64,000 nt of DNA from Actinospica robiniae DSM 44927 (GCF_000504285.1 NZ_KI632511.1:8228154-8292153); one strand, 5' to 3'; counted from the stretch's first letter, positions 19,962 to 23,637 are shown. Notes: generated by a model from the letters alone, not told the origin. A program made the numbers and translations.

Positions 19962-20276
19962 AACATCAAGATCAAACGCGCCGCTGGCGGGCCCTTCCCT
20001 CGGAGAGAGATGCCGGGGTTTGTGGGGTGCTGGCGTGGTGGGGCGGGCTGGCGTTCGGGATGGTGGGGTTGCGGGGTGTGCTCTCTCCTCGGTCGGTCCC
20101 CGGAGGCAATCAGGAACCTGCCGGGAGGTCAAGCGGCGGTGGTTGTCGCTGTGCTGCTTTCGTCATCGCGCCGCTTGACCTCCCGGCAGAACCCTGATCG
20201 GGCTTCGCCTGCCCGACCGAGGAGAGAACCCACCCCCAGCCGACCGGTCTGAGCTGCGCTCGGGCCCGGACTCGCC
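19962..20276. repeat. Left copy of a ~310-bp palindromic unit flanking the HNH gene
   Basis: The outer half (19962-20140) matches the reverse complement of 23222-23405, sharing CCGCTGGCGGGCCC, TTCGGGATGGT, CGGAGGCAATCAGGAAC and GGGAGGTCAAGCGGCGG. The inner half (20166-20276) matches the reverse complement of 21856-21966, including about 60 identical bases and GAGCTGCGCTCGGGCCCGGA. The unit is also self-complementary: CTCTCCTCGGTCGG near 20091 pairs with CCGACCGAGGAGAG near 20213, and GAGGTCAAGCGGCG with CGCCGCTTGACCTC, around a ~25-base loop. It could form a long hairpin. Confidence 0.85.
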
Positions 20277-20489
20277 GGTCTGGTCGCCGTTCCCGCCGCT
20301 GCCGAATTCCACATCGACCTTCACCATTGGCCCTCTTAGCTAGTCAACGCCCGGTACCGGCACGAGGTTGCAGCGGATTCTCTTTGCCTTTAACGGGTTC
20401 GAATACACCAAAACGCACCTTTTGTCGGACCCCTCATCTAAACTGTAGGTACAGGACCGAACACGGTGGGAAATCATGGGGAGGGGCTC
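20277..20489. other. Region upstream of the HNH gene
   Basis: About 210 bases between the left repeat unit and the HNH start. It is less GC-rich than the surroundings around 20385-20460. TTGTCG near 20415 with TAAACT/TAGGTA near 20438-20450 is a possible promoter for the HNH gene. Confidence 0.35.
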
Positions 20490-21836
20490 ATGGAGAACGA
20501 GATCGGCAACGCCGTCGCCGAGATCGAGGCTGCGGCGGCGGGCTTGCGCAGGGCAGTGAATCAGGTGCTCGCCGCCACCGAGAACGCCTCGCCGAAGGAT
20601 CCCGAAGTCGCTGGCATGCTGCTGCAGGTGCTGCGCGCACTCGGGACCGCCGAACAGACCGCCCACGGGCTGATGCTCCAGACCACCGCACGCGCCGACC
20701 GGCTCAAGGCCGCACCCGGCGGCGTGGGGCCCTGGCTGGCCGCCAACCTCGACTTTTCCACCAGCCGGGCCAGACAGCTCGCCCTCGAAGCCCGCACCAT
20801 CGGCGCCCTTCCGCGGTTAACACACGACCTCTCCGCCGGTGCGTTCGGCCCGGACACCACTCGCGCCCTCACCCGCACCGTGCGAGCCGTCCAGCACACC
20901 ACGCTGGATCCGGGCGAGGCGCTCACGACGACCATCGCCATCGCCCGCGCCGAGGGGATCAGCGCGGCGAACCAGCACGTGCGGGTGCTCGAACACACCA
21001 TCGACCCCGAAGCCGCCCAGGAAAACGACTCCCAGCAGCGCGCCCGCAGCTTCCTGCGCTTCAGCGATGTCGGGGACGGATTCACCCGCATCGACGCCCT
21101 GCTCGACACGGTGCGCGCCACGATCCTGCGCTCCGCCATCGACCAACTCGTCGGGTACTGGCACCGCACCGCCCGTCTCGACAAGACCACGCTCGTACCC
21201 GACGACATCGCCCACACCGAGCAATACAACGCCCAAGCACTCACGCACCTGGCCGAAGTCTTCCTCGCGGCGCCGCCCGCCCAGCGGGAAGCCGCCTTCA
21301 GCGCACCCATCCTCTTCTACGCACCACTACCCGAGACACAGGCCACGCGGAAAACGGCAGGAGACACAACAGACACGACGATGACCCCCAGGCAGGAATC
21401 CGTGTTGAATCCGACATCAGGCAGGGTGGGAGGCGTCAGTCGGGGCCGAGGCCAGAACCAGAAACAGGGACGAGGCGTCGCGCCGGGGTATGCCGTCAGT
21501 GCCTACGGTGACCTCGTCGCTCTCTCCGCCCTCGGCCCCATGCCGAATCGCCCCGCACACCTGCTCCTCACCGACCTCCTCGGCCAGCCCGTCACCCTCG
21601 ACGGGAAGGCCATCGACACTGACCCACTCGCCCGCCTCGCTTCGCCCGCACAGCGCATGGCCCTGGGCTTCCGCGACCGCCACTGCACCCACCCCGGCTG
21701 CGACCGCCCGGCCCTCTGGCCACTCGAAGCACACCACGTCATCGCCTACTCGAAAGGAGGCCCGACAACGCTCGCGAACCTCACACTCGTCTGCGGCGAA
21801 CACCACGACGCCATCCACCACCCCCATGCACGCTAA
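20490..21836 (+). CDS. DUF222 / HNH endonuclease (13E12 repeat family)
   Basis: The 448-residue protein has an N-terminal DUF222 helical region (residues ~1-290), a variable linker and a C-terminal HNH nuclease motif: CTHPGCDRPALWPLEAHHVI, then LANLTLVCGEHHDAIHH. Both zinc-binding cysteines and the HH pair are present. Proteins of this group (REP13E12 in mycobacteria) are multicopy and often linked to mobile DNA. GGGGAGGGG lies just before ATG 20490; upstream in-frame GTG 20466 is not supported. The gene sits exactly between two inverted copies of a palindromic repeat unit, suggesting that gene and repeats form one element. Confidence 0.88.
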   Translation: MENEIGNAVAEIEAAAAGLRRAVNQVLAATENASPKDPEVAGMLLQVLRALGTAEQTAHGLMLQTTARADRLKAAPGGVGPWLAANLDFSTSRARQLALEARTIGALPRLTHDLSAGAFGPDTTRALTRTVRAVQHTTLDPGEALTTTIAIARAEGISAANQHVRVLEHTIDPEAAQENDSQQRARSFLRFSDVGDGFTRIDALLDTVRATILRSAIDQLVGYWHRTARLDKTTLVPDDIAHTEQYNAQALTHLAEVFLAAPPAQREAAFSAPILFYAPLPETQATRKTAGDTTDTTMTPRQESVLNPTSGRVGGVSRGRGQNQKQGRGVAPGYAVSAYGDLVALSALGPMPNRPAHLLLTDLLGQPVTLDGKAIDTDPLARLASPAQRMALGFRDRHCTHPGCDRPALWPLEAHHVIAYSKGGPTTLANLTLVCGEHHDAIHHPHAR

Positions 21837-21855
21837 CCGCGCGAGGCGAGCCCTG

Positions 21856-21966
21856 GTCCGGGCCCGAGCGCAGCTCGCACCGGACCTCAGGGGGTGGGCT
21901 CTCTCCTCGGTCGGGCAGGCGAAGCCCGATCAGGGTTCTGCCGGGAGGTCAAGCGGCGCGACGCAA
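21856..21966. repeat. Right palindromic unit, inner half (separated by IS30)
   Basis: This is the reverse complement of 20166-20276. It starts 20 bases after the HNH stop with GTCCGGGCCCGAGCGCAGCT and ends GGGAGGTCAAGCGGCGCGACG, where similarity to the loop of the left copy breaks off at the IS30 insertion. Its other half is at 23222-23405. Confidence 0.85.
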
Positions 21967-21978
21967 AATCCACCACGC

Positions 21979-23210
21979 GGTGTCTGTCAGTGGTTGCGAA
22001 TCAAGGTGGTGTGTTGTCTGGGGATCCATTGTGCCATGCGTTCTTCCGGGGTAGCCCATTCGAGGACGCGGCGGGGGCGGGTGTTGAGGAGGTGTTCGAC
22101 GTGGCGGAGGTCTTCGAGGGTGTGGCGGGAGAGGTCGGTGCTCTTGGGGAAGTACTGGCGTAGGAGGCCGTTGGTGTTCTCGTTGGTCGGCCGCTGCCAG
22201 GGTGAGTGGGGGTCGCAGAAGAACACGGGCATGCCGGTCAGCTCGGTGGTCTCGCGGTGGCGGGCCATTTCGGAGCCCTGGTCCCAGGTGAGTGATTTGA
22301 GGATCTGGGCGGGCAGGTCGGCGAGTTGGGCGACGAGGGCGTCGCGCATCGTCTCGCCGGTGCGCCGGTGGGGCAGGTGGATGAGTTTGAGGTAGCGGGT
22401 GTGGCGGCATACGAGGGTGCCGATCTGGGAGCGCTGGTGTTTGCCGATGATCAGGTCGCCTTCCCAGTGGCCGGGTTCGGAGCGGTCGTCGGCGGCGGCG
22501 GGGCGCTGGCGTATCGAGGTCATGTGGGGTATCGGGCCGGCGTGGCCGGGTTTGGCGCGTGTGTGGGGTGTGCGCAGGCGGCGCCCGGTGCGTAGTTTCG
22601 CTTTCTTCTCGCCGACCAGGCCGGCGTAGTAGGCCTGGTAGATGCTCTCGGCGCAGGCGCGCTGGTGCCACTGGTCGGGGTGGGCGGCGGCGAGGTGTCC
22701 GGCGATCTGGCCGGGCGACCAGCCGGCCGCGAGGAGTGCGTGTACCTGTTCGCGCAGGGGCTCGTTCGCTTCGATCTTGGCCGGGCGGTCGCGGCGTCGG
22801 GCGAGGTAGGCCTGGTTGTGGGCGTAGTAGGGGTCATAGACCCCGTTGGGTCTGCTGTTGCGCTCGATCTCGCGGTAGACGGTCGCGACGCTCTTGCCGA
22901 TCGCCTCGGCGATCAGCGGTTTGGGGCGGCGTGCACGGGTGCCGTCGGCGATCACGATCCGGTCTTGGAGTGAGAGGAAACGGGCTGAGACCCGGGCTGG
23001 TTCATCGATGCTCACCCCACCAGCGTGCTGGAGCCAGCGGCAGCCGGCGCTTTCGGATACTCCGGCCGCCGCTGCCGCCTGCCTTTGGGTATAGCCCGAA
23101 TGGATGAGCTCGAAGAACCGGTACTTGACCTCGCGCGCAACGGGTATCCCAGTCGGATTGGGCACGTACGAAACCTCTCAACGAGAAGTTCGCAACCATC
23201 ACTGGAAACC
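21979..23210. mobile_element. IS30-family insertion sequence
   Basis: The element holds one transposase gene read leftward. Its ends carry an imperfect inverted repeat of about 22 bases with core TGGTTGCGAA at 21991-22000 and its complement at 23189-23198; the outer parts share GGT and TC. The transposase stop lies inside the left repeat, usual for compact IS30 elements. The sequence CCACGCGG occurs at both edges (21973-21980, 23214-23221) and may be a target duplication, although 8 bases is longer than usual for this family. It sits in the loop of the right palindromic unit. Confidence 0.82.
21987..23165 (-). CDS. IS30-family transposase
   Basis: The intact 392-residue protein has two N-terminal helix-turn-helix segments (YTQRQAAAAAGVSESAGCRWL; PLIAEAIGKSVATVYREIERN) and a DDE catalytic core. 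Asp237 lies in GHWEGDLIIG, Asp295 in TWDQGSEMA and Glu329 in TNENTNGLLRQYFPK, the classic IS30 pattern, with a C-terminal LNTRPRRVLEWATPEE. No frameshift is visible, so the copy may be active. Confidence 0.95.
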   Translation of the reverse strand: MPNPTGIPVAREVKYRFFELIHSGYTQRQAAAAAGVSESAGCRWLQHAGGVSIDEPARVSARFLSLQDRIVIADGTRARRPKPLIAEAIGKSVATVYREIERNSRPNGVYDPYYAHNQAYLARRRDRPAKIEANEPLREQVHALLAAGWSPGQIAGHLAAAHPDQWHQRACAESIYQAYYAGLVGEKKAKLRTGRRLRTPHTRAKPGHAGPIPHMTSIRQRPAAADDRSEPGHWEGDLIIGKHQRSQIGTLVCRHTRYLKLIHLPHRRTGETMRDALVAQLADLPAQILKSLTWDQGSEMARHRETTELTGMPVFFCDPHSPWQRPTNENTNGLLRQYFPKSTDLSRHTLEDLRHVEHLLNTRPRRVLEWATPEERMAQWIPRQHTTLIRNH

Positions 23211-23221
23211 GCCCCACGCGG

Positions 23222-23405
23222 AAACCTCCGCCGCTTGACCTCCCGGCAGGTTCCTGATTGCCTCCGGGGACCGGCCGAGGAGAGAACCCACCCCCGCAAC
23301 CTCACCATCCCGAACCCCAGCCCGCCCTCCCAACGACAGCACCCACCCAAACCCGGCACTCTCTCCGAGGGAGGGCCCGCCAGCGGCGCCGTTGACCTTG
23401 ACCTT
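23222..23405. repeat. Right palindromic unit, outer half
   Basis: This is the reverse complement of 19962-20140 at roughly 85-90 percent identity by eye, reading from CCGCCGCTTGACCTCCC inward to GGGCCCGCCAGCGGCG outward. With 21856-21966 it rebuilds the same unit as the left copy once the IS30 is removed. Confidence 0.85.
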
Positions 23406-23439
23406 GACGTTGACGTTGACGTTGACGTTGACGTTGACG
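23392..23439. repeat. Hexanucleotide tandem repeat (TTGACC/TTGACG) x 8
   Basis: Two TTGACC and six TTGACG units run head to tail, followed by a decayed TTGAACG. The corresponding edge of the left copy (19962-19976, reverse complement) has only about two related units (TTGATCTTGATG), so the array seems to have expanded at the right edge of the element. The gap from 23440 to 23637 shows no gene. Confidence 0.8.
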
Positions 23440-23637
23440 TTGAACGCAGGCGCTGACGCTAACGATCGCTGTTGATGTTGACAGTCGACCCATTCACGGG
23501 GCCTGGAACGTCAAGCGGATCACCAGCATCGGTGACGATCCAAGGCCGGACATGGCGGCATGCCCACGCCACGGCAGATGTGGCACCTGCCGCCAGGTGA
23601 GTCACGGACCAGCTCAGACTGTATGCGTGAGCGGTTC

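Follow-up and report, generated by a model that had tools for sequence, protein, structure and literature searches.

The DUF222/HNH nuclease gene found in the 64,000-nucleotide stretch of DNA analyzed here (the window), from the soil actinomycete Actinospica, together with the two palindromes that flank it, represents a full-length copy belonging to a transposon-like family of roughly 125 elements, of which ~110 lack the HNH gene, both genome-wide totals being extrapolated from pattern counts with only some of the pairs read. The complete element measures ~2.5 kb and consists of two long inverted ends with nested palindromes around a single DUF222/HNH gene. We consider it somewhat probable that the element is autonomous, its HNH protein acting on the palindromic ends, inserting the element at YTAR with duplication of TA and mobilizing mini-derivatives in trans. 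The evidence for mobility comes from relatives of the window copy, the window copy itself being without standard outer ends.

The product of the window gene belongs to the 13E12 (DUF222-HNH) protein family, both of its domains scoring above the curated Pfam cut-offs (DUF222, 39.0 bits versus 24.4; HNH, 27.8 bits versus 21.4). As the original prediction had it, the gene is enclosed by inverted units of ~310 bp (Table 1), whose arms align most extensively at 20151-20271 with 21856-21976 (121 nt, 88%) and at 20073-20149 with 23218-23294 (77 nt, 92%), with further inverted arm pairs at 20036-20076/23292-23332 and 19966-19998/23369-23401. Each unit is itself a long palindrome, also as predicted, with inner and outer stems; the 30-bp inner stem of the left unit is 90% paired, and the DNA fold of this unit has a z of -3.5, with none of 100 shuffles reaching this stability. 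An IS interrupts the right unit; its transposase scores 270.6 bits in the IS30 family (NCBIfam cut-off 80), and its refined boundaries (Table 1) are flanked by direct repeats of 5 bp, CCACG, at 21973-21977 and 23214-23218; removal of the IS leaves a right unit of 309 bp. The predicted unit length holds in the window, but intact copies in the alignment of fetched sequences measure ~440-500 bp and reach ~65-100 bp further out. In the window copy the standard outer ends are not recognizable and a clear target duplication is absent. The window HNH protein shares only ~41% identity with the main HNH lineage, as against ~90% for its units and those of that lineage, so units and gene can be decoupled; the mismatch between the window copy and the L057 lineage suggests either gene conversion among units or an exchange of genes between elements. 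At its right end the window element adjoins an array of TTGACG/TTGACC hexamers (23390-23443).

Table 1. Features of the nuclease gene and its two palindromic units (positions counted from the first letter of the window).
Feature	Position	Strand	Remarks
Left palindromic unit	19962-20276	+	homology to other copies, 19966-20268
Outer stem, 5' arm, left unit	20073-20096	+	partner 20213-20236
Inner 30-bp stem, 5' arm, left unit, ATCAGGAACCTGCCGGGAGGTCAAGCGGCG	20109-20138	+	partner 20169-20198; compensatory changes across lineages
Hairpin loop, left unit	20139-20168	.	equivalent spot in other units receives IS30
DUF222/HNH gene	20490-21836	+	448 aa from ATG at 20490; GTG at 20466 a possible start
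HNH nuclease domain	21696-21818	+	residues 403-443; intact Cys/His pattern CTHPGC...EAHH...N...CGEHH...H
Right unit, first part (inverted)	21856-21977	-	ends in IS30 target repeat CCACG
IS30-family IS in loop of right unit	21978-23213	-	transposase 21987-23165 (-)
Right unit, second part	23214-23405	-	starts with second CCACG repeat, 23214-23218

A genome search for the unit, as originally proposed, revealed it to be abundant. In the 9.92-Mb single-contig Actinospica genome, of which the window covers 8228154-8292153, a 17-bp unit-specific pattern with up to three mismatches occurs, far more often than chance would allow, at 133 forward and 132 reverse places (reversed control, 7 and 7), corresponding to ~125 units per strand genome-wide, and the window unit retrieves many genomic copies at 87-92% identity. 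Among the 100 places listed, 43 of the 44 neighboring pairs less than 6 kb apart are convergent (plus, then minus), and 26 of these 43 are spaced 739-1031 bp. Each convergent pair is one element, the basic object being a unit, a middle and an inverted unit spanning 1.3-1.7 kb. All 13 DUF222/HNH loci of the window genome carry units, and 11 of them sit between two convergent units homologous to those of the window; at L094 and L095 the homology is confined to the core (~80%). The L097 gene is bracketed by two units ~68% alike to those of the window, whose arms are 96-99% complementary and whose stems are nested in the same way, and at L096 a unit of L097-type architecture, split by an IS3, lies downstream of the gene. 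The arrangement recurs in Actinospica acidithermotolerans MGRD01-02 (G002), where a DUF222/HNH gene again lies between palindromic units, 77% identical to those of the window genome, and a second copy of the gene has a unit directly downstream. The convergent pairs, the units at all 13 loci and the filled and empty site described below bear out the earlier proposal that gene and inverted units form a discrete mobile element.

The ~110 extrapolated HNH-less pairs are mini-elements that carry both ends together with the promoter and start codon of the HNH gene. In the mini-element middle, ~180 bp can be aligned at ~70-75% with the promoter and start of the HNH gene, GTGGACGGGGTGG at the start codon included, and further segments align with the 3' end of the gene. 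Judged from these alignments, the mini-elements are internal-deletion derivatives of HNH elements, as MITEs are of their parents. It had been anticipated that wide occurrence without an HNH gene would reduce the unit to a generic repeat; most pairs do lack the gene, yet because they contain its promoter, start and 3' parts they are descended from HNH elements, rather than HNH elements from them. The loss of the gene from most copies suggests that an uncharacterized but common nuclease family moves them.

The elements end in (Y)TA-nn-GCGAnTTGATGATCGGCTGaGTG. Eighty-seven outer-end matches, a few of which are chance matches, align as (C/T)TA-nn-GCGAnTTGATGATCGGCTG(a/g)GTG, reading inward from both sides, and the end motif occurs 64 times on the plus and 74 times on the minus strand of the genome, compared with 0 and 0 in the control. 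The L094/L095 lineage has separate ends of its own, and these too are preceded by YTA. TA is present on both sides in 18 of 32 two-ended elements, and in all 18 the rejoined site reads YTAR, mostly CTAG; insertion at YTAR is apparently accompanied by duplication of TA. Two variable base pairs separate TA from GCGA, and the cut position is uncertain by a base or two. Because the flanking purine agrees between the two sides in only 11 of 16 cases, TA is kept as the minimum duplication, and a longer one was rejected. Insertions occupy dozens of unrelated intergenic sites, many just past the stop codons of adjoining genes, rather than the one conserved homologous site of an HNH homing endonuclease; since these loci have only YTAR in common, the homing variant of the original prediction is not supported. 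Filled and empty sites were sought, and one was found at L101, where the joined flanks of the element present in the window genome form a single continuous match of 466 columns (79%) in the Actinospica genome G001, with the flanking genes meeting without the element, and where 146 bp lie between the matching pieces of G002, again with the element absent. This polymorphism is direct evidence of insertion in the lineage of the window, or of clean loss in two others. Outside the L105 element, an intergenic sequence of ~85 bp in the right flank (query 1144-1229) has dozens of copies in the window genome (G000), G001 and G002 and constitutes an unrelated repeat family.

Alignment of 15 unit cores from four sequence groups revealed changes on both sides of the inner stem in 11 of its 30 pairs. 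The paired share of cells is 91.3%, as against 83.0% for shuffled and 31-42% for slid-register controls, and compensated cells number 38, compared with 13.8 in shuffles, relatedness being corrected by the slid-register controls and not by the shuffles. Unit sequences differ between lineages, with the 30-bp stem kept by compensatory changes. Since pairing persists while the sequence changes, dyad symmetry itself is maintained, which is what one would expect of a hairpin or of a symmetric protein-binding site.

No gene other than DUF222/HNH was found inside complete elements, and the nuclease is the sole candidate mover that they encode. The gene is under purifying selection, with dN/dS values of 0.15-0.28 in all 15 comparisons among six intact paralogues, and thus does something that matters for the surviving copies. 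In the mechanism that we propose, the HNH protein would act as a recombinase that recognizes the palindromes in DNA, DUF222 being the presumed DNA-binding part, and that cuts or nicks at the element ends and at the YTAR (mainly CTAG) target. A TA-staggered cut would leave a TA duplication upon insertion, usually just outside the ends of neighboring genes, and copies in which almost the whole HNH reading frame is gone but the ends, promoter and start codon are kept would be moved in trans. A bolder reading, which we advance tentatively and hold to be possible rather than probable, is that DUF222/HNH proteins represent a new class of transposase, in which the HNH nuclease recognizes long nested palindromes, inserts at CTAG with TA duplication and mobilizes more than 100 derivatives in trans, with palindromes and nuclease diversifying between lineages. 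No HNH protein is known to transpose DNA, which counts against HNH as the mover; its transposition chemistry, if the proposal is true, would belong to none of the DDE, HUH, serine and tyrosine classes. Also weighing against an HNH-driven element are the IS630-like TA/CTAG signature, the missing outer ends of the window copy, the decoupling of units and gene, and the lack of brackets at all 40 DUF222/HNH loci sampled elsewhere.

The main rival to the HNH protein as mover, which we judge unlikely, though to be taken seriously, is that an IS630/Tc1-mariner-type DDE transposase, resident or lost, moves the elements, the HNH gene having been fixed in full-length elements as cargo or as a helper. 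Duplicating TA at CTAG is the hallmark of DDE transposases of the IS630/Tc1-mariner type, and two intact IS630 copies reside in the genome, also at CTAG. The YTAR/CTAG target and apparent TA duplication of the Actinospica elements are as in IS630-family elements, for which TA target duplication and a preference for CTAG have been described (PMC2170065). The resident IS630 was rejected as the mover, however, for although its target fits, its ends do not: GTGCCGTATCAGGCTAC is unlike the element ends GCGAnTTGATGATCGGCTG, and GTGCCGTATCAGGC likewise fails to match GCGAnTTGATGATCGG. Complete elements, moreover, encode DUF222/HNH only and no DDE transposase, and the HNH gene, which is under purifying selection, recurs across several element lineages and two species.

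Two further explanations were considered. It is very improbable that the family consists of old extragenic repeats of REP/BIME type, serving the host at gene ends (bidirectional termination or nucleoid organization), into pairs of which HNH genes merely inserted or homed; palindromes at the 3' ends of genes bring REP elements to mind, most unit pairs lack an HNH gene, and HNH nucleases are classical homing enzymes, but the HNH promoter, start and 3' parts inside HNH-less pairs point to derivation from HNH elements, the TA-type target and the species-specific empty site show that the whole unit pair was inserted, and the pairs are convergent with fixed spacing. We regard as very improbable a reading of the window copy as a degenerate chimera, itself immobile, in which a divergent DUF222/HNH gene was captured between common mini-element units by recombination. 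Such a capture would be in keeping with the discrepancy between protein and unit identities, the missing outer ends and the disruption of one unit by IS30; against it, the reading frame and HNH motif of the window gene are intact, and the core-only units of L097, with their highly complementary arms, suggest that short-ended forms are real.

DUF222/HNH (13E12) genes are common in the phylum and repeated in Mycobacterium tuberculosis. The 13E12 repeats have been said to 'lack defined biological function' (PMC13061034), and a screen for mobile elements marked REP13E12 as one of the repetitive elements (PMC10589994). The REP13E12/13E12 family of M. tuberculosis has the same DUF222 + HNH architecture and is likewise multicopy in an actinobacterial genome, but the Actinospica gene is part of a defined element that has ends, a target rule and more than 100 deletion derivatives. 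Here a single DUF222/HNH lineage is the sole gene content of a mobile element that is defined, polymorphic and high in copy number, and whose mini-derivatives, target rule and candidate substrate make the family's function a testable question. Bracketing as a general rule for DUF222/HNH genes was rejected: of 296 genomes sampled across the phylum, 109 gave matches to such genes, and at 40 loci in 40 genomes no inverted palindromic brackets were found, the best scores for long inverted repeats lying within the control range. The sister-genus genomes G003 and G005-G013 each have one DUF222/HNH-like gene that matches mainly in the HNH part, and at the one locus checked (L137, in G010) no inverted repeats flank the gene.

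Other known systems resemble the Actinospica elements in part. MITEs are likewise numerous non-coding, inverted-end copies that arise from a longer coding element by internal deletion, at AT-containing targets, and their short target duplications have an apparent counterpart in the TA of the Actinospica elements, but the Actinospica ends are far longer (~440-500 bp with nested palindromes) and the parent encodes an HNH protein and no DDE transposase. REP/BIME palindromes associated with RAYT (IS200/IS605-like) also occur in inverted pairs, with the enzyme gene bracketed by the same palindromes, but the Actinospica units are about ten times longer and the apparent TA duplication is of duplex type; no HUH (Y1) transposase domain was found in the element protein. 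With the HNH proteins of IscB/IS605 the element protein shares the HNH domain, in a weak match of 48 aa (21.5 bits versus a cut-off of 175) that covers HNH only, and no RuvC-like domain was detected in it. A scan of genome contigs gave matches at the A. acidithermotolerans loci only, plasmids gave weak HNH-domain matches only, and no relatives were found in phages and IMG/VR. The PDB sequence search matched only the HNH tail (E > 0.1), and PADLOC matched nothing apart from the 34-residue HNH tail of L094. Three sub-threshold microRNA matches in Rfam are chance matches to the long hairpin, and the AlphaFold model of the HNH protein (mean pLDDT 48) is too poor for use. An earlier description of such an element was not found in the literature searched, which is weak evidence of absence.

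The four genomic copies of the window IS30 (window, L061, L071 and L251) all lie in the hairpin loop of a unit, extending to every copy what had been predicted for the one in the window, and their 5-bp direct repeats, where both sides were read, are CCACG or TGGCG; an IS256-type element interrupts the L061 copy. ISs of other families (IS4, IS110, IS3 and IS701-like) have split further units, and the units behave as IS magnets. REP palindromes have been described as IS targets as well (PMC1525189). A hidden element transposase in long pairs was rejected, the genes there being those of IS4, IS110, IS256, IS701-like, IS3 and IS30 elements. An intact IS630 (L275, G000:C1:8181825-8182736), present in two identical copies with the ends GTGCCGTATCAGGC, lies at CTAG within the middle of an apparent mini-element. 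In units L055, L060, L068, L073, L079-L083, L086, L088, L090 and L096, the ISs occupy a few recurrent positions of the palindrome.
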